From positions 1,769,977-1,833,976 of the forward strand of contig NC_018068.1 of assembly GCF_000255115.2 (NCBI RefSeq): 64,000 bases of DNA, given 5' to 3'. The notes beneath the pieces are model-generated. The model saw nothing but the letters and a program-made list of their open reading frames with translations. It had not been told where the DNA came from and did no database searches. How positions within the stretch are numbered: position 1 is the first letter of the stretch; every line of letters starts with the position of its first letter. Positions 36,815 to 45,795 of the stretch are shown in pieces. A program made the translations under genes and the position numbers. Origin of the DNA: Desulfosporosinus acidiphilus SJ4 (GTDB lineage: Bacteria; Bacillota; Desulfitobacteriia; Desulfitobacteriales; Desulfitobacteriaceae).

Positions 36815-38191
36815 ATGCTTAGTACATCGTTTCAGCAGGAAGTATTAGAACGCCTTAGCCAGATATGCCCTGTATATCGGGTGGGGGGATCTGTGAGGGA
36901 TGCACAATTGGGTATCTCCTCCAAAGATGTGGATGCTATCGCGGCTCTTTCCCAGGAACAAATTTGTGAAAACCTGCGGTGTTGGGGTTATACGCCTCAC
37001 TTACTTGGAGCAAACGTTCAAACGGTGAGCTTGTTTCGAGAAACTGATCGCTTAGATTTGGTCTCTTTTTCAGGAGAATTGGAAAGGGATGCTTCGCGGC
37101 GTGACTTTACCATCAATGCCATTTATCAAGATGTAAAGACTGGGGAAATTGTAGATCCTTTTCAGGGACTAAGAGATTTGAAAGATCATCATTTAAGGGC
37201 TTGTGGCAAGGCTTCCGAACGCTTTCAGGAAGATCCGCTGAGGGTCTTGCGCCTGGTACGATTTGCGGTTTCTTACGGATTAAGTATTGAGGCCGAGACT
37301 TGGCAGTCCGCAATCGTTTCTATGCCTAAACTTTCTATGGTTTCCAGGGAACGAGTCACTGAAGAATTAGGGAAAATCTTGGTCTTAGATAACATGGCCC
37401 GGAGTTTTTCCCTTTTGGATGAGCTGGGATTTTTTCAAAGATTTATTCCGGAATTATCAAGACTTAAGGGTTTGGCAAACCATCGTTTTAATCCAGACGA
37501 TGGGTGGAATCATACCAGGCGGGTTGTTCAGAATACCCCTAATAAGCTTATTTTGCGTTTGGCGGCCTTGTTTCATGAGCTGGGAATAGGGGAGATAAGC
37601 AGCGAAGAAAGTTTGGCGGGGAATGGTGAGGAAAGTGCTTGGCTAACGCGAGAAATATTCAGCCGTTTTCGTTGGAGTATGGTTCTTGCCGGAGGAATTA
37701 AGGGGGAGCAAGAGGTTGAATTCCTGGTAAAACATCATATGCTGGGGAATATTATCTTCGGGGAGGAATTGCAGGGCGCGAATGATTGGAGAGAAGTATC
37801 CTTAAAGGCACGTGGTTTTGCCTGGGATATGGGATGGAACGGTCAAGTTTTTGATTCGCTCCGCGTAGAGAGTTTGCTGGGCCTCTGGCAGGCGGATTTT
37901 CAAAGCGGAGATCATAGTGGGGATGATCTTATGCGCCTGGGGAACCTACAAGAAGAGATTAAAAATGCTTGCATATGGATAAGCGGGCGGCTAAAGACTC
38001 TGAATTGGCAAATGTTCTGGGACTTTGTGCAGGAAAAGGGTTTAGAGGGAAAGCCGCTTGGACGATTTAAAGAACAAGTTCGCAGAGTATTGATGCTGGA
38101 GCCAGAACAATCTTTGAATGACGTTAATTTTCTGGAAAGAGAGTACGATAAAGCAATTGGTCAGAAATTAGAGCGAACTGAGACAATATAA
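36815..38191 (+). CDS. CCA-adding/poly(A) polymerase-family nucleotidyltransferase
   Basis: The 458-aa protein has the class II head domain VYRVGGSVRDAQLG with the catalytic acidic pair in SSKDVDAIA, then RRDFTINAIYQD, FQEDPLRVLRLVRFAV and an RNA-binding neck. A central DDGWNHTRRVV ... LRLAALFHELG resembles an HD domain, but Glu replaces the usual Asp (HE), so phosphohydrolase activity is doubtful. It adds or repairs the tRNA 3' CCA, or a part of it. ATG 36815 follows ACAGGGGG. Confidence 0.88.
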   Translation: MLSTSFQQEVLERLSQICPVYRVGGSVRDAQLGISSKDVDAIAALSQEQICENLRCWGYTPHLLGANVQTVSLFRETDRLDLVSFSGELERDASRRDFTINAIYQDVKTGEIVDPFQGLRDLKDHHLRACGKASERFQEDPLRVLRLVRFAVSYGLSIEAETWQSAIVSMPKLSMVSRERVTEELGKILVLDNMARSFSLLDELGFFQRFIPELSRLKGLANHRFNPDDGWNHTRRVVQNTPNKLILRLAALFHELGIGEISSEESLAGNGEESAWLTREIFSRFRWSMVLAGGIKGEQEVEFLVKHHMLGNIIFGEELQGANDWREVSLKARGFAWDMGWNGQVFDSLRVESLLGLWQADFQSGDHSGDDLMRLGNLQEEIKNACIWISGRLKTLNWQMFWDFVQEKGLEGKPLGRFKEQVRRVLMLEPEQSLNDVNFLEREYDKAIGQKLERTETI

Positions 38192-39296: not shown

Positions 39297-41300
39297 ATGA
39301 AGTCAGAGTTTAGAAGATCGGTATGCCCTTATGATTGTCCTGATACCTGTGGGCTTAAGGTCGAGCTGCAGGAAGGCAAAGTGGTAAGAGTAACCGGTGA
39401 TCCCGAACACCCATTCACAAAAGGGACCTTATGCCCTAAAATGGCTCATTATGAAAGAACGGTTTATTCAGAGGAAAGATTGACTTCCCCTCTCCTGCGT
39501 TCCGGGAAGAAAGGCACAGGACAGTTTCAAGCAATTACCTGGGATGAGGCCATTGCCCATATTACGAACCGTTGGCAAGACTTGATTAGTCAATTTGGGG
39601 CTGAGACAATTTTACCATACTCCTATGCGGGAACTATGGGAGTGGTTCAGCGTAATTGCGGGGAAAGCTTTTTTAATCGCTTGGGCGCCTCGCGTTTAGC
39701 GCGGACGATTTGCTCTTCGGCCAAAGGTTATGGCTGGACCTCGGTGATGGGTGAAACTTTAGCTCCGCATCCTAATGAGGTTATGAAGAGTGATTTGATA
39801 ATTCTCTGGGGAACTAACGCCCTGGCCACCAACATCCATTTTATCCATAATGTGCGGGAAGCAAAAAAACGAGGTGCGAAAGTCTGGTTAATAGACACTT
39901 ACGAAACACCGACAGCTAAAATTGCGGATAAGATTTTTTGTGTCAGGCCAGGCAGTGATGGTGCTCTTGCTCTCGGTATCATGCATATCCTGGTTCAAGA
40001 GGGATTGCAGGATCAAATGTTTCTTAATGAATACGTCCAGGGGTTTGAGGCCTTTCGTCAGGAGAGTCTCCATGATTTTCCTCCCGCTAAAGTCAGTCAA
40101 ATTACAGGTCTTGAAATCAATCAAATCGAAGAACTAGCACTTGGCTATGCCCGGGCTCGAGCCCCTTTCATTTCCTTAGGTTCAGGGATTTCTCGTTATG
40201 GAAACGGAGCGATGACTGTTCGTCTCATTACGTGCCTGCCCGCAGTAGTTGGCGCTTGGAACAAGCCGGGAGGCGGGTTGCTGACAAGTATCTCTTTAAA
40301 GACCATTTCCACAGCGACGGTCATCCGCGAAGATTTCCTGCGAACTCCCACGCGCCTTGTTAATATGAATCAGCTTGGTTTTGCCCTGACAGAATTAAAA
40401 GATCCCCCGATCAAGAGTTTATATGTTTATCATTCCAATCCTGCGGTGATTGCCCCGGACCAGAATCAGATACTCAAGGGGCTGCGGCGGGAGGACCTGT
40501 TTACAGTAGTCCATGAACGGTTCATGACAGATACTGCTCGCTATGCCGATATTATATTACCTGCCACAAGCTCCTTGGAGCATTCGGATCTTTATCGTTC
40601 CTATGGTTCTTATGTTGTACAGAGGGCTGCGGCAGTGATTCCGCCCCTTGGCCAAGCAAAATCAAATTGGGAAGTTTTTCAGTTGCTGGCTGAGGCTATG
40701 AAGTTTGGTGAGTCCTTCTTTAAGCAATCTGCGGATGACCTTATTGACCAATTTATTATTCCGTCATCTTCCGGGCTGTCAGAGTCCGAGAAGAAGAAAC
40801 TTTCAGAAGGCCATCCTGTGGAAGTCAATTTGCCTCTTGATTATAAGATGAGATTTCAGACTCCCTCAGGGAAAATTGAACTATATAATCCCAAAGAGCC
40901 TGCACCATTGCCCTACTATTTCGCACCTCATGGCGATAATGCCCCATTCTTTTTGATGAGCACCCCTAATTTATTCTCTTTAAACTCATCCTTTAATGAG
41001 CGAAAGGATTTGGTATCTAAGAAAAAGGCGGCCTATCTTTTGATGAATGTTGATGATGCGGCTGAAAGAAATTTGCAGGATCTTCAGCCAGTCGTCGCTT
41101 TTAACGAACGAGGCGAAGTCAATTTCATTCTTAAAACGACGCCTAAGGTTCCCCGCGGAGTCGTTGTCACAGAAGGGTTGTTTTGGAATAAGGATTCCGA
41201 CACTTCATCAGTTAATGCTTTAACTTCTCAAAGATTGACAGATCGTGCCTCGGCCAGCACCCTTTACGATGTAAAAGTCGACGTACGGTCTGGAAGCTAA
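39297..41300 (+). CDS. Molybdopterin (bis-MGD) oxidoreductase catalytic subunit
   Basis: The 667-aa protein opens with a 4Fe-4S motif (CPYDCPDTCGLKVEL, last Cys in GTLCPKM). It continues with Mo-cofactor regions (AETILPYSYAGTMG; LIILWGTNALATN; WLIDTYETPTAKIAD; VHERFMTDTARYADIILPAT) and a C-terminal dinucleotide-binding domain. No selenocysteine is evident. It belongs to the DMSO-reductase superfamily, but no electron-transfer or membrane partner and no Tat signal are encoded nearby. It is therefore a stand-alone cytoplasmic enzyme of unknown substrate. ATG 39297 follows TTAGGAGGC. Confidence 0.9.
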   Translation: MKSEFRRSVCPYDCPDTCGLKVELQEGKVVRVTGDPEHPFTKGTLCPKMAHYERTVYSEERLTSPLLRSGKKGTGQFQAITWDEAIAHITNRWQDLISQFGAETILPYSYAGTMGVVQRNCGESFFNRLGASRLARTICSSAKGYGWTSVMGETLAPHPNEVMKSDLIILWGTNALATNIHFIHNVREAKKRGAKVWLIDTYETPTAKIADKIFCVRPGSDGALALGIMHILVQEGLQDQMFLNEYVQGFEAFRQESLHDFPPAKVSQITGLEINQIEELALGYARARAPFISLGSGISRYGNGAMTVRLITCLPAVVGAWNKPGGGLLTSISLKTISTATVIREDFLRTPTRLVNMNQLGFALTELKDPPIKSLYVYHSNPAVIAPDQNQILKGLRREDLFTVVHERFMTDTARYADIILPATSSLEHSDLYRSYGSYVVQRAAAVIPPLGQAKSNWEVFQLLAEAMKFGESFFKQSADDLIDQFIIPSSSGLSESEKKKLSEGHPVEVNLPLDYKMRFQTPSGKIELYNPKEPAPLPYYFAPHGDNAPFFLMSTPNLFSLNSSFNERKDLVSKKKAAYLLMNVDDAAERNLQDLQPVVAFNERGEVNFILKTTPKVPRGVVVTEGLFWNKDSDTSSVNALTSQRLTDRASASTLYDVKVDVRSGS

Positions 41301-41345
41301 CAAATAGGAGCTTAAGGAAAATACTAAAAAAGTTTTAAAAAAGGG

Positions 41346-41374
41346 TTGATTTTTATTTAAAGTAATTGTAAAAT
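41346..41374 (+). promoter_or_regulatory. SigmaA-type promoter of the reverse rubrerythrin gene
   Basis: TTGATT, a 17-base spacer and TAAAAT. The following AT-rich stretch (AATTATTTAGTAATTATT) is loosely like a PerR box, but the match is poor. Confidence 0.6.
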
Positions 41375-41418
41375 AAGAACATAAATTATTTAGTAATTAT
41401 TGAGGAGGCAAACTTAAG

Positions 41419-41967
41419 ATGATTAAGAAATTTGTATGTTCAGTATGTGGATATGTATTTGAAGGAAATGAGGCACCAGAAAAATGTCCGCAGTGTGGAG
41501 CATCGAAAGACAAATTCTCAGAGAAAAAAGAAGGGCAGCTTGCATGGGCTGATGAGCATAAAATTGGAGTAGCCCAGGGCGTTGATCCGGAAATCCTTGA
41601 AGGATTAAGAGCTAATTTTACCGGAGAATGCACTGAAGTTGGTATGTACCTAGCTATGAGCAGGCAGGCAGATCGAGAAGGTTACCCTGAAGTTGCTGAA
41701 GCCTATAAGAGAATCGCCTTTGAAGAAGCAGAACATGCTGCTAGATTTGCAGAAATGCTGGGCGAAGTGGTGTTTCCTGATACGAAAAAGAATTTGGAAG
41801 CAAGAGTTGAAGCCGAATACGGTGCTTGCCAAGGTAAAAAGGACATCGCCACTAAGGCTAAACAACTGAACTACGATGCTATTCATGATACGGTTCACGA
41901 AATGTGCAAGGACGAAGCCCGACATGGCAAGGCTTTTAAAGGACTTTTGGAGAGATATTTTAAATAA
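41419..41967 (+). CDS. Reverse rubrerythrin (rubredoxin domain first)
   Basis: The 182-aa protein has an N-terminal rubredoxin site ([20 protein letters not shown]) followed by a ferritin-like four-helix domain with the diiron ligands ([42 protein letters not shown]). The domain order is the reverse of classical rubrerythrin and is typical of clostridial NADH-peroxidase revRbr. It reduces hydrogen peroxide in the cytoplasm of anaerobes, taking electrons via rubredoxin-type carriers such as the protein at 38331. ATG 41419 follows TGAGGAGGC. Confidence 0.93.
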
Positions 41968-41989
41968 AATTTGATACAAATAAGTCGTT

Positions 41990-42078
41990 AAAATACAATT
42001 TTCATTATCGTAAGTTCGTTGAATATCAGGGCTTCAAGCTTGTAGTTCACGAAACCGATTTTGGAAATTGTATTTTTT
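41990..42078 (+). terminator. Long-range inverted repeat with T run after reverse rubrerythrin
   Basis: AAAATACAATTT (41990-42001) pairs with AAATTGTATTTT (42065-42076), followed by TT. The 63-base loop is unusually long, so this may be a terminator enclosing extra structure or a small RNA. The gap 41968-42336 shows otherwise only the TetR control region: TGTCC/GGACA at 42281-42298 and TATAAT at 42314. Confidence 0.45.
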
Positions 42079-42336
42079 CGTATAATATAGTTACAGTCTG
42101 TGTAACTTGGAACCTAGAATTATAAGTGATATACTTGAAAAGGAAATAAGAGGAACAGACTATTAAAAGTTAAAAGATAATTTGATGTTTATGGATAAAG
42201 CTCTGAAATTTATTTCAAAAATATTCCAGCTTTAAACTGGATTCCAAATTGAATCTATTTGCTGGTGCTTCAAAAATAAATGTCCTTGGAGAGGGACACT
42301 AAAAACTACTACTGTATAATACTAGAGGTAATGAAT

Positions 42337-42918
42337 TTGGATAAGATCTCGTTAGATAAAGAAATAATCCTCAATGCAACAGAAGAAGTTATTCGCCGTT
42401 TCGGACCAGACAAAGCGAATATCACTGACGTAGCAAAGCTATTAAAGGTTAGCCATGCTGCCCTTTATAGATATTATAATGGAAAAACTGACCTTTGGAA
42501 CGCTGTTACAGATCGTTGGCTCACAAGTTTGCATGCTCCTTCAAATGATATTTTGAAAGAAGATAATCCTGCTGATATTAAACTTTTTCATTTACTCGAA
42601 GACTTTGCGGAAGCTAAACGCCGCAGTGCTATTAATGACCCGGAAATGTTTGCAAATTATATTAAACTAGCACACAGCTCAATGGAAGTAATTGAAAAAA
42701 GTATAGAAGAAGGTATTAATCGTATCAAGGAGATTATAGATCAAGGAATTTCGGAAGGTATCTTTTTTACGGAATCTCCTGATCAAGCGGCAAGATCCGT
42801 ATATCTTTCAACCGGTGTTTTTATCAACCCAAACTCATTTGAAGATCCGAATCGAAAACAGAACATAGAATCTGTTATAAATCTCCTGATAAGAGGACTT
42901 AAAAATCCTAATAACTGA
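42337..42918 (+). CDS. TetR-family transcriptional regulator
   Basis: The N-terminal helix-turn-helix is typical (ILNATEEVIRRFGPDKANIT, then VAKLLKVSHAALYRYYNGK), with a C-terminal ligand-binding part. TTG 42337 has the best ribosome site (AGAGGT, 7 bases upstream); ATG 42331 is too close to it. A TATAAT at 42314 and an inverted TGTCC-N8-GGACA at 42281 suggest an autoregulated promoter. It precedes the imported quinone oxidoreductase gene by 360 bp, and may control what formerly stood there. Confidence 0.88.
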   Translation: MDKISLDKEIILNATEEVIRRFGPDKANITDVAKLLKVSHAALYRYYNGKTDLWNAVTDRWLTSLHAPSNDILKEDNPADIKLFHLLEDFAEAKRRSAINDPEMFANYIKLAHSSMEVIEKSIEEGINRIKEIIDQGISEGIFFTESPDQAARSVYLSTGVFINPNSFEDPNRKQNIESVINLLIRGLKNPNN

Positions 42919-42966
42919 ATCAAGCAGGAGAGGGCGGCTGGGCTTCATCCTCTCGCAACACCTTGT

Positions 42967-43164
42967 TTATGAGATGGGACTGGGTTTTTCTCGAAGTTCG
43001 ATAAAGCTCCCAAAAAGATAAGATAAAATTTTTTCGCCCTTGGCTTTCCAAATAGGATTGTCGAGGGCGTTAGTTATTGGTATTTCAAGAATTTCACCAT
43101 ACTTTATAAAAACAGGGTCAAATTGAGAGCGGAAGCAATACTCTTTAATATATTTTGCGACGAG
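42967..43164 (-). pseudogene. Possible C-terminal relic of an unknown gene
   Basis: On the minus strand an open stretch of 66 codons reads VAKYIKEYCFRSQFDP, then ILEIPITNALDNPIWKAKGE and LFGSFIELREKPSPIS before a TAA. It has protein-like composition but no start codon, and a stop precedes it. It may be the tail of a lost gene; no family recognised. The rest of the 42919-43282 gap holds the AT-rich promoter region of the next gene. Confidence 0.35.
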
Positions 43165-43282
43165 TTACAAGTTAAACATGTCGTATTCTGTAGCGCGATA
43201 TGATATAATTAATTTCGTAGATTACAATATCGTAAGAATGTAATTTGTAACATTAATTTTAAAGTTTAAAGGAGGATTTATT

Positions 43283-44272
43283 ATGCGTATTTCTGTAACA
43301 GGAGCAACAGATTTGCACGAACCGAGCGTCGACACATCGGCGGCCACGAGCAGAGCGGTCTTGCTCGAGTCATTCGGCGGTCCTGAGGTCCTCAACGTCC
43401 GCGAAGTACCGGCTCCGCAGGCCGGCTCGGGGCAGATTCGCGTGCGCGTCACTGCGGCCGGACTGAACCCGATGGACTGGTTCATGACCTCCGACGCAGA
43501 CACCGCCACTCGTTTCGGCTTGAGCCTGCCGTCCGGGTTCGGAACCGATTATGCCGGGATTGTGGACCAGGTCGGTGACGGTGTGACCGAGTTCGCGGTT
43601 GGCGACCGAGTGTTCGGCGGCGCTCTCTCCCGCGCAGTAGCCGACTACGTAGTAGTAGATGTGGCTGTGACCATCGCGGCAGGCAGCGACGCGCACCACA
43701 CCCCCGACGGTGTCGACGACCGCACCGCCGCCACCCTTACTATCGCGGGCTGCACGGCCTCCGCCGCTCTCGCCGTGGTCAACCTCGGCCCAGACGACAC
43801 GGTGCTCATTGGCGGCGCGGGAGGCGGGGTCGGCGTGTTCACCGTCCAACTCGCTCGGCTCGCGGGCGCGCGAGTGATCGGAACGGGATCGGCGATCTCG
43901 GCCGATGCCCTGCGTGCCCTTGGAGCCGAGCCGGTCCCCTATGGCGAAGGCATGGTTGAACGGATCCGCGCCCTGGCTCCCGCCGGCGTCACTGCGGCGA
44001 TCGACCTGTACGGGACAGACACGATGCAGGCGGCACGAGAACTTGGCGTTCCCGACGAGCGCATCACCACCATCGCAGCACAGGTCGACGGGATCACGCC
44101 GGCAAACGGTGCTAACGCCGCCCCTGGAGCCATAGAAGAGATTGCTCGCCTGGTCGCAGCGGGCCGGCTCCGTGTGCCCATCGCAGCAAGTTTCCCGATG
44201 GAGCAGATCCGCGCGGCGGTCGAGCTTCAAGCCGGCCGGCACGTGCACGGCAAGATCGTCATCGACATCTAG
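43283..44272 (+). CDS. NADP-dependent quinone oxidoreductase/MDR dehydrogenase, GC-rich import
   Basis: A 329-aa medium-chain dehydrogenase/reductase without structural zinc Cys. It has a GroES-like part (RAVLLESFGGPEVLNVREVP; AAGLNPMDWFM; GFGTDYAGIVDQVGDGVTEF), nucleotide loop LIGGAGGGVGVFTVQLA and the ending GRHVHGKIVIDI. It would reduce quinones or enones with NADPH. From about base 43315 to 44345 the DNA is extremely GC-rich with G/C third positions, unlike every neighbour, as in actinobacteria. The first residues MRISVTGAT are low-GC and look like the start of a native SDR gene, so the reading frame is probably a chimera with a captured AAAGGAGG site. Confidence 0.88.
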   Translation: MRISVTGATDLHEPSVDTSAATSRAVLLESFGGPEVLNVREVPAPQAGSGQIRVRVTAAGLNPMDWFMTSDADTATRFGLSLPSGFGTDYAGIVDQVGDGVTEFAVGDRVFGGALSRAVADYVVVDVAVTIAAGSDAHHTPDGVDDRTAATLTIAGCTASAALAVVNLGPDDTVLIGGAGGGVGVFTVQLARLAGARVIGTGSAISADALRALGAEPVPYGEGMVERIRALAPAGVTAAIDLYGTDTMQAARELGVPDERITTIAAQVDGITPANGANAAPGAIEEIARLVAAGRLRVPIAASFPMEQIRAAVELQAGRHVHGKIVIDI

Positions 44273-44549
44273 GTGTTGTTCCACGACCTTGTCGTCGTTA
44301 GCTCGGATGGTCAGATCATCTGCCCGCGGCAGGCGAGGGTGCGTTTCGCTATTAAAGTGAGTTATGTATAGAAATTTTTAAGGGTGTTTAGTTTTTATCA
44401 ATTGAGTTAGAATGTTATTATACGAAAATGAATCAATTCAATAGTAATTGCTGCTTGATGGCGCAAATAATCAGATAGAAAAAGTTGACCTGCGGATCAT
44501 CAGCCGATACAGGGTGATATTAGTGTCTTTATTTAGGAGGACAGTTAGT

Positions 44550-45602
44550 TTGAGTGTAAACGAATGGCAGGATTGGAAAAGGAAGCTGCGGGAATGGGCT
44601 TTTGATTTAGGTTTCGCGGCTGTCGGATTTACCACTGCCGAACCGGTTGAGGGACTTGATAGTTTGTTGGAGGTTCGCCTTGATCAAGGTGTGTCCACGC
44701 CTTTTGAAAGCCGAGAAATCCGGGAGAGGGTTGATCCCAGGGTTGTTTGGCCGGACTGTCAGGGAGTCGTTGCTTTAGCTTATCCGCACCCTTCAACGGC
44801 TGTTCCGAATCAAGGGGAGGGCATCTTAGCTCGCTCGGCAATTGGTGAAGATTATCACCGTGTCATTCAGAAGAAATTGCACGAGTTGAGCGAGAGAATG
44901 ACCGGCAGCCATTGGCCGGGAGCTTTGCGGTGGCAGGTTGACACGGGGCCTTTGGTTGAGAGAGCATTTGCAGTACGAGCAGGTATTGGCTGGATTGGGC
45001 GAAACCAGCAGCTGATTATTCCCGGCTATGGTTCCTTTGCAGGGCTGGCGCTGTTATTGCTGGATCATGAGCTTCCCAGTGACGAGCTGGTTCAGAACCA
45101 TTGTGGTTCTTGTCGGAAATGTATAGAAGCTTGTCCTGCTCAAATTCTTGGTAAAGACATCTTCGCGGCTAAGAACTGTTATTCATATATTACGCAGAGT
45201 AAAGAAGTTCTCACCCCAGCAGAGAGGATCGGACTGGGAAACCGGATATTCGGTTGTGATACCTGCCAGGAAGTATGTCCTCACAATCAAAAAAGGGTTA
45301 GGGAAGAGCTGAGGGAATTATCGATACCCGGGAAGAAGCGGGGAGCGGATTTGCTGGGTATTTTGAACTTAACTAAGGGAGAGTTTCGGGAACGTTTTCT
45401 TCACACGGCAGCAGGATGGCGGGGGAAAGGAGTTCTGCAGCGGAATGCTTTTTTGGCCTTGCGCAATATGCAGGACCCGCGGCTCAACTCTTGGCTGGCC
45501 CAAAGGGAAAAATCACTGCCGCCGATATTAACTCCGTATCTGGAAGAAGCCGTGGGAGAACAAGAACATAAAGGGAGTGTAAAAGGGACGATTATAACCT
45601 AA
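44550..45602 (+). CDS. queG: Epoxyqueuosine reductase
   Basis: The 350-aa protein has a DUF1730-type N-terminal domain, VDTGPLVERAFAVRAGIGWI, and two 4Fe-4S motifs (CGSCRKCIEACPAQIL and CDTCQEVCPHN). These bind clusters that pass electrons to a cobalamin cofactor. It performs the last step of queuosine synthesis, turning epoxyqueuosine in tRNA to queuosine. TTG 44550 is favoured by AGGAGG nine bases upstream; a GTG at 44556 is close behind. The C-terminal HEAT-like part looks short. A strong hairpin overlaps its stop codon. Confidence 0.92.
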   Translation: MSVNEWQDWKRKLREWAFDLGFAAVGFTTAEPVEGLDSLLEVRLDQGVSTPFESREIRERVDPRVVWPDCQGVVALAYPHPSTAVPNQGEGILARSAIGEDYHRVIQKKLHELSERMTGSHWPGALRWQVDTGPLVERAFAVRAGIGWIGRNQQLIIPGYGSFAGLALLLLDHELPSDELVQNHCGSCRKCIEACPAQILGKDIFAAKNCYSYITQSKEVLTPAERIGLGNRIFGCDTCQEVCPHNQKRVREELRELSIPGKKRGADLLGILNLTKGEFRERFLHTAAGWRGKGVLQRNAFLALRNMQDPRLNSWLAQREKSLPPILTPYLEEAVGEQEHKGSVKGTIIT

Positions 45603-45634
45603 CTTAAAGGTCATAATCGTCCCTAATTTTTTTT
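45585..45634 (+). terminator. Terminator overlapping the end of queG
   Basis: GGGACGATTAT pairs with ATAATCGTCCC (45585-45595 and 45613-45623), with further ACCT/AGGT pairing in the loop and eight T just after. The left arm includes the last codons of queG. Confidence 0.9.
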
Positions 45635-45649
45635 CACGACGTTTAACAA

Positions 45650-45795
45650 GGTCTCCGTGCCGAACCTGGCCTGTATGCAGCAAATGCATAGAGTTGCCGG
45701 CCTTAACGAGATGATGGAATCACGCCTATCAAGTGAGGCATGCCTTTCGGGCTTGCCGGAAGCCCCTGCCTCTTAACGAAGTGTGGGTAGGGGAG
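45650..45795. ncRNA. Highly structured intergenic segment, unassigned
   Basis: TATGCA-GCAAA-TGCATA (45674-45690) and a nested hairpin GAGGCA/TGCCTC enclosing GGGCTT-GCCGG-AAGCCC (45735-45772) lie between queG and the convergent aminotransferase gene. TTAACGA occurs twice. There is no open frame. It resembles a folded RNA or a palindromic repeat; family and strand are unknown. Confidence 0.35.

Follow-up and report, generated by a model that had tools for sequence, protein, structure and literature searches.

In the window, the 64,000-nucleotide stretch of the Desulfosporosinus acidiphilus SJ4 genome analysed here, we found a chimeric gene in which a native SDR-type start runs in frame into the body of an actinobacterial MDR oxidoreductase. 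We consider it likely that this gene and the tetR gene ahead of it make up a portable TetR-controlled redox cassette in which the enzyme was swapped, an actinobacterial MDR having been fused behind an SDR start and the whole then having moved as a unit. Both parents and the seam between them are legible in the DNA, as are conserved synteny in three species, a contrast in divergence between the cassette and its flanks, purifying selection on the enzyme and the absence of the donor's own TetR. The locus appears to be a natural regulator swap, well resolved and brought about by in-frame fusion, and it stands out for the completeness with which the event can be traced. Its features are as follows.

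42089-42108, forward strand: operator-like AGTTAC-N7-GTAACTT dyad ahead of tetR that shares two bases with a -35-like hexamer
42331-42918, forward strand: tetR repressor gene of the cassette (Pfam TetR_N and TetR_C_27)
42919-43282, forward strand: spacer with promoter-like sites and AGTTAC and GTAA half-sites, aligning with the spacer of tetR-SDR loci
43268-43275, forward strand: ribosome-binding site AAAGGAGG, read directly and aligned to the site of the SDR loci
43283-43313, forward strand: SDR-derived start (MRISVTGAT, NmrA-like SDR leader), identical to three SDR starts at 24-26 of 28 nt
43314-44272, forward strand: in-frame body of a zinc-free, quinone-oxidoreductase-like MDR (ADH_N, ADH_zinc_N) with identity to actinobacterial genes from 43314 on
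44273-44345, forward strand: GC-rich non-coding tail, 86-89% identical in D. acididurans and Desulfosporosinus sp. FKB

Composition and seam of the chimeric gene

The chimeric gene (43283-44272, forward strand) starts with an ATG at 43283, ends with a stop codon at 44270-44272 and encodes 329 aa. The first-pass annotation had placed an abrupt switch in composition between about 43315 and 44345, and these coordinates were right. GC content was 0.674 over 43315-44272, whereas 900-base windows across the rest of the 64 kb averaged 0.425 (sd 0.038, maximum 0.530, z 6.6). The 115 bases upstream of the seam had a GC content of 0.243, and downstream of the stop codon the non-coding tail stood at 0.603 before composition dropped to 0.240 in the next 75 bases. 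At fetched loci other than those of D. acididurans and FKB, this tail gave just 13-14-base chance matches; it evidently arrived together with the MDR gene.

Local alignment (blastn) of 42000-44400 with ten chosen loci placed the seam at 43313/43314, alignment ends being certain to within a few bases only. Among the SDR loci, those of D. acididurans (L016) and FKB (L013) matched up to 43313 and that of G021 up to 43310, while matches to Actinoallomurus (a MAG, L023) and Streptomyces samsunensis (L024) started at 43314 and ran to the stop codon with 89.5-89.6% nucleotide identity. Later starts were seen for Saccharibacillus (43316) and Actinomadura (L087, 43320). The terminal SDR-locus pieces that reached 43313 had E values of 4e-8 and 1e-9, and the first 28 nt of the gene were identical to the SDR starts at 25 (FKB), 24 (D. 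acididurans) and 26 (G021) positions. Homology to the SDR loci spanned tetR, parts of the spacer, the ribosome site and the start, which bears out the earlier reading of the promoter region, ribosome site and first codons as native; the meeting of the two sets of alignments at the seam likewise upholds the proposed in-frame fusion of a GC-rich actinobacterial oxidoreductase to an SDR-type start. At the protein level, actinobacterial sequences begin M(Q/K)EPSVNTSATTSRAV or nearly so, and the window reads MRISVTGATD-LHEPSVDTSAATSRAV. The donor ATG aligns with the window TTG at 43313-43315, indicating that the fusion was made in frame at about the donor's start.

Source of the start and absence of the donor regulator

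In D. acididurans, tetR and SDR genes are both whole (L016) and lie away from the chimera locus, and in FKB the SDR is intact (L013) with only 44 residues of its tetR matched. The comparison proposed earlier, of the locus in sister strains for an intact SDR gene, turned up no SDR parent at the chimera locus itself, the tetR-SDR loci of the sisters being elsewhere in their genomes. Since the SDR locus of FKB has lost most of its tetR and kept its SDR, the TetR of the MDR cassette may now control both promoters in that strain. No close SDR was found in the window genome, where the best match was 55% identical over 47 residues and contained a stop, and two others were 40-45% identical over 73 and 51 residues. 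A decayed tetR-SDR remnant, comprising the 3' end of tetR and the spacer, was located at G000:C3 1691146-1691383 (L014 1491-1728) and was 77% identical to FKB over 244 columns; it sits between collagen-like G-A-T repeat genes. At two further loci, L006 (G025) and L007 (G009), the same tetR family is convergent to an SDR of 51-53% identity.

A search of the genome collection for the MDR retained 80 of 88 loci, of which four were from Bacillota (L021, L022, L025, L029) and three from Acidobacteriota (L091, L099, L100); the others, L039 aside, were Actinomycetota by title or tree label. A donor-type TetR, always divergent, was present at 66 of the 80 loci and missing by tblastn at 14, namely all four from Bacillota and 10 of the remaining 76. 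This regulator carries TetR_C_43 and is 23% identical to the window TetR, relatives of which (TetR_C_27) were not found at the non-Bacillota loci of the search. That none of the four Bacillota loci has the donor-type TetR argues that the regulator was swapped. An SDR homologue 44-45% identical to the Desulfosporosinus SDR lies within 2 kb of the MDR at L035 (4993-5892) and L039 (5853-6731), which may point to roles of the two enzymes in related responses.

Distribution of the cassette

The first-pass annotation had held that the same GC-rich gene in all relatives would speak against its reading; we detected the MDR at E 1e-60 in three of 29 genomes of the genus, some of which are incomplete. 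The two sisters with the cassette are Desulfosporosinus sp. FKB and D. acididurans M1, whose copies are 86-94% identical to that of the window at the nucleotide level, and in all three species the cassette is flanked by rubrerythrin and queG. In another relative (G009), the rubrerythrin-queG gap is about 640 bases long and holds neither tetR nor MDR. Across the class, the MDR occurred in 3 and the TetR in 6 of 82 genomes, all Desulfosporosinus. In a sample of the order of Cohnella, 2 of 392 genomes had the MDR and 3 had the TetR, the third TetR being just 46% identical; the genomes with both were Cohnella zeiphila and Saccharibacillus sp. CPCC 101409, with tetR identities to the window of 87% and 77%, respectively. 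By sequence, the tetR-chimera cassette is thus present in five Bacillota genomes. The earlier claim of a transfer that created a chimera holds for the graft itself but not for its having been made only here, as four other Bacillota genomes share the arrangement. We discarded the explanation that this genome alone had imported the gene directly from an actinobacterium, since tetR belongs to the cassette and other genomes share it.

No relative of the MDR or TetR was found among viral contigs, no MDR at E 1e-30 among phage records and no TetR at 1e-30 among plasmid records; among 72,556 plasmid records a single one, from Streptomyces, carried the MDR. For the neighbourhood of the cassette in the window, the analysis covered the ORF list and Pfam comparisons of four proteins. 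In Cohnella zeiphila, a tRNA-Leu(CAG) gene (L022 2914-3001), a common place of insertion, ends about 170 bases before tetR. The 5' edge of the FKB cassette abuts a 156-bp hairpin repeat (L004 1345-1500) that looks like a transposon end or MITE, presumably akin to IS605-type ends, and has 73 matches in FKB, 70 in D. acididurans and 48, mostly weaker, in the window genome. This repeat was set aside as a vehicle, since the window lacks it at the corresponding place.

Divergence of the cassette and its flanks

We measured dS for the cassette and the genes around it, leaving out the row for an antisense ORF (FKB, 43370-44284) and keeping that for 36815-38191, with 137 of 458 aa aligned, as support only. 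Between window and sisters, dS was 0.108-0.151 for tetR and 0.202-0.239 for the MDR, against 0.641-1.565 for the flanks. Among the latter, rubrerythrin gave 0.641-0.758, the aminotransferase 1.02-1.03 and the gene behind it 1.17-1.22; values of 1.35-1.57 were obtained for the molybdopterin oxidoreductase (FKB only), the flavoprotein (D. acididurans only) and queG. Comparing FKB with D. acididurans gave a dS of 0.159 for tetR and 0.233 for the MDR, with flanks at 0.191-0.331. The contrast indicates that the cassette has probably been inherited vertically between FKB and D. acididurans and horizontally with respect to the window lineage. It thus seems old in the FKB-D. acididurans line, and tetR and the chimera seem to have been exchanged together with the window line after the lines had separated. 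As to what was transferred, the MDR body is foreign as first proposed, but by dS the unit exchanged with the sister lineage was the whole cassette, tetR included. The window copy is evidently not a simple descendant of the sisters' copy, because it has 17 extra leader codons, some of them donor-like.

At the 5' border, no match between window and sisters was found from rubrerythrin to 42072-42083, and rubrerythrin itself showed no gradient (0.87-0.91 over six bins). The identical rubrerythrin-queG location in both lineages, with adjoining sequence that does not align, counts against an exchange. A lone 48-bp GC-rich MDR fragment lies 141 kb away from the gene, within an AT-rich spacer (L002 1501-1548; G000:C3:1671950-1671997). 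Of its 48 positions, 46 agree with the FKB allele and 45 with the resident gene, a gap too small to assign its source, and the fragment could be either the trace of another copy or a fragment captured during DNA uptake. Short-patch illegitimate recombination was considered as its origin.

Leader lengths and phylogeny

The number of residues before (S/N)RAV was 22 in the window, 14 in Saccharibacillus, 8 in Cohnella and 5 in both D. acididurans and FKB, so that the leaders of the other copies are shorter by whole codons. Cohnella and the sisters have a shorter leader and an ATT-to-AAT change in common. At tetR sites, the window and its sisters were united against Cohnella by 15 against 2-4, and MDR sites were nearly undecided (4, 3 and 2); the three sites tying the window to donors are at gene positions 64, 131 and 226. 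The short leader and the ATT-to-AAT change conflict with the tetR signal, suggesting that the 5' end of the chimera may be mosaic. In an MDR tree of 77 rows, built without L090, L092, L093 and L096 because their best match was short or contained a stop, the window grouped with FKB, D. acididurans and Cohnella at 85/93 (not starred) inside a large unresolved fork, and the nearest actinobacterial row by path was Streptomyces samsunensis (0.18).

Candidate operator sites around tetR

Pfam scores for the window TetR were 34.9 bits for TetR_N (cut-off 24) and 64.3 bits for TetR_C_27 (cut-off 26.1), and an in-frame TTG at 42337 is an alternative start. Next to the dyad upstream of this gene lies a sigma-70-like site (42107-42135). 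The pattern AGTTAC-N7-GTAACTT has its sole exact match in the 4.99-Mb genome at this place; with one mismatch allowed, 5 matches were found genome-wide versus 22 for the control. For the core TTAC-N7-GTAA we counted two occurrences in the window against 0.62 expected, a number equalled or exceeded in 17 of 100 shuffles; it is present in 7 of the 8 tetR upstream regions examined, Cohnella being the exception. With counts near or below controls, the case for an operator comes from conservation and not from number.

In the spacer ahead of the chimera, dyad arms measured 14 bases in FKB and 9-13 bases in Cohnella and Saccharibacillus (at most one mismatch). The window and D. acididurans spacers contained half-sites only and no full dyad over the threshold, and in this genome the promoter of the chimera itself offers little evidence of an operator. 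An Rfam scan of 41000-45700 gave no match at gathering score. From the conserved AGTTAC/GTAACT sites, we infer that TetR represses its own gene and, less surely, the promoter of the chimera.

Predicted fold and function of the enzyme

The chimeric protein matched the MDR profiles ADH_N (48.8 bits, cut-off 23.5), ADH_zinc_N_2 (44.4, cut-off 27) and ADH_zinc_N (40.2, cut-off 31.8), and only MDR domains were found by Pfam, with no Epimerase or NmrA match that would mark an NmrA-like or atypical SDR; the SDR contribution amounts to about the first ten codons. The protein has a glycine-rich motif, GGAGGGVG, at residues 177-184 and contains one Cys and five His, with no zinc-ligand cysteine set. Among the NCBIfam profiles listed it fell under every cut-off, the best being the PIG3 subfamily TIGR02824 (106.8 bits, cut-off 296.8). 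The enzyme kind itself is ordinary.

An AlphaFold2 model built on 24 aligned rows had a mean pLDDT of 88.9, with residues 1-18 below 50 and the first strand at 22-28. The model places the seam in a disordered N-terminal stretch that is not part of the fold, which would account for tolerance of the graft and of leaders of other lengths. The first-ranked Foldseek match was 3tqh (Coxiella; TM 0.75-0.77), and the closest solved structures, 20-27% identical among the 50 listed, were mostly called quinone oxidoreductases; that the enzyme uses NAD(P)H to reduce quinones or enones is our guess from the fold. Across 21 pairs from seven copies, MDR dN/dS was 0.10-0.24, indicating purifying selection and pointing to a working enzyme that has been kept functional.

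Alternative explanations

The abrupt change in composition would fit an artefact in which actinobacterial reads were attached to a Desulfosporosinus contig through contamination or misassembly, a possibility that the first-pass annotation had wished to see excluded. We consider this extremely unlikely, since in the assemblies of FKB and D. acididurans the cassette occupies the same position between rubrerythrin and queG at the nucleotide identities given above, Cohnella and Saccharibacillus have it too, and the contig that contains the window is 4.93 Mb long in a three-contig genome with a completeness of 99.99 and a contamination of 0.42. The involvement of only about ten codons leaves some room for MRISVTGAT to be coincidental and for the MDR to have landed behind an unrelated promoter, but homology to the SDR loci that takes in tetR, spacer parts, ribosome site and start, and ends at 43313 after 24-26 identical positions in 28, makes this highly improbable. 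Vertical inheritance from an ancestor of the three Desulfosporosinus species, with slow evolution making the cassette look young, is the simplest reading of the synteny, as all three have it in the common spacer. It is nonetheless improbable: cassette dS is about 2.7 to 14.5 times below that of both flanks for the low-GC tetR and the high-GC MDR alike, the cassette genes diverge like the flanks between FKB and D. acididurans, and 26 of the 29 genus genomes, some incomplete, gave no MDR at E 1e-60.

More weight attaches to independent grafts, whereby Saccharibacillus, and perhaps the window copy, would have captured the MDR separately behind a like tetR promoter. In the MDR tree, Saccharibacillus joins Amnibacterium (82/96) and stands away from the other four, its dS to the window is about 2.8 for tetR and 0.63 for the MDR, and its leader lacks TGAT. 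Against this, a single clade of all five Bacillota MDRs was not rejected (p-AU 0.385), dN to the window rises alike for tetR (0.123 in Saccharibacillus, 0.069 in Cohnella) and the MDR (0.085 and 0.055), and adaptation of tetR to a GC-rich host could account for its high dS (GC3 0.58). A second graft is thus possible, and we rate it as doubtful.

Proposed origin and its implications

Under the favoured explanation, that of a swapped enzyme in a mobile TetR-controlled cassette, a Bacillota module of tetR and an NmrA-like SDR would have gained an actinobacterial MDR in frame after the first ten SDR codons. The foreign gene would thereby have taken over the module's promoter region, ribosome site and start codon, with the donor's divergent TetR left behind. 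The tetR-chimera cassette would then have travelled as a unit between Desulfosporosinus lineages, and copies are also found in Cohnella and Saccharibacillus. TetR may repress its own promoter and that of the chimera through the AGTTAC/GTAACT sites until a ligand, likely a quinone or electrophile, lifts repression, and the chimera may reduce the inducing compound with NAD(P)H; selection would have favoured regulated expression of the MDR enzyme.

A broader and more speculative reading, to which we assign a low probability, is that the tetR-operator-ribosome site-ATG module is a natural 'docking site' for unrelated redox enzymes that spreads between distant Bacillota, the same start codons having accommodated an NmrA-like SDR as well as an actinobacterial MDR, the latter possibly twice. 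If true, it would be a promoter-plus-start-codon analogue of the integron cassette that works by illegitimate recombination and not by an integrase.

The route by which transferred genes gain regulated promoters in nature is, to our knowledge, mostly inferred. In the present case the route can be followed through the two parents and the seam joining them, through the donor regulator that is missing and through four relatives whose leaders differ in length; the module that would have lent its switch survives in a sister genome. The swapped enzyme and retained switch make regulator swapping on transfer directly testable, together with the disordered N-terminal tail as a place where such fusions survive. 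Judged from listings and abstract openings, the open-licence literature yielded no description of a tetR/SDR-start/MDR fusion.

Comparison with known systems

The chimera resembles zinc-free, quinone-oxidoreductase-like MDR enzymes (PF08240 with PF00107 or PF13602; E. coli 1qor, Coxiella 3tqh) in domains, fold and GGAGGGVG motif, and differs from them in its SDR-derived leader and in the different TetR in front. In the actinobacterial pair of a TetR and a divergent MDR, as in Streptomyces samsunensis (L024), the MDR has 89.5% DNA identity and likewise stands beside a TetR-type gene, but this is a divergent TetR_C_43, whereas in the window a TetR_C_27 gene lies upstream in tandem. The tetR-NmrA-like SDR locus of D. 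acididurans (L016) shares a tetR of 85% identity and homologous spacer, ribosome site and first codons, but its partner, as at L013, is an SDR (Epimerase/NmrA) unrelated to the MDR, and the FKB tetR is only a remnant. Activation of a horizontally transferred gene by rearrangement, in which an imported gene gains expression through illegitimate recombination (PMC11111574), is a related process; that system is a marker-selected tandem duplication in the laboratory, whereas the present case would be a natural in-frame fusion kept in several genomes.
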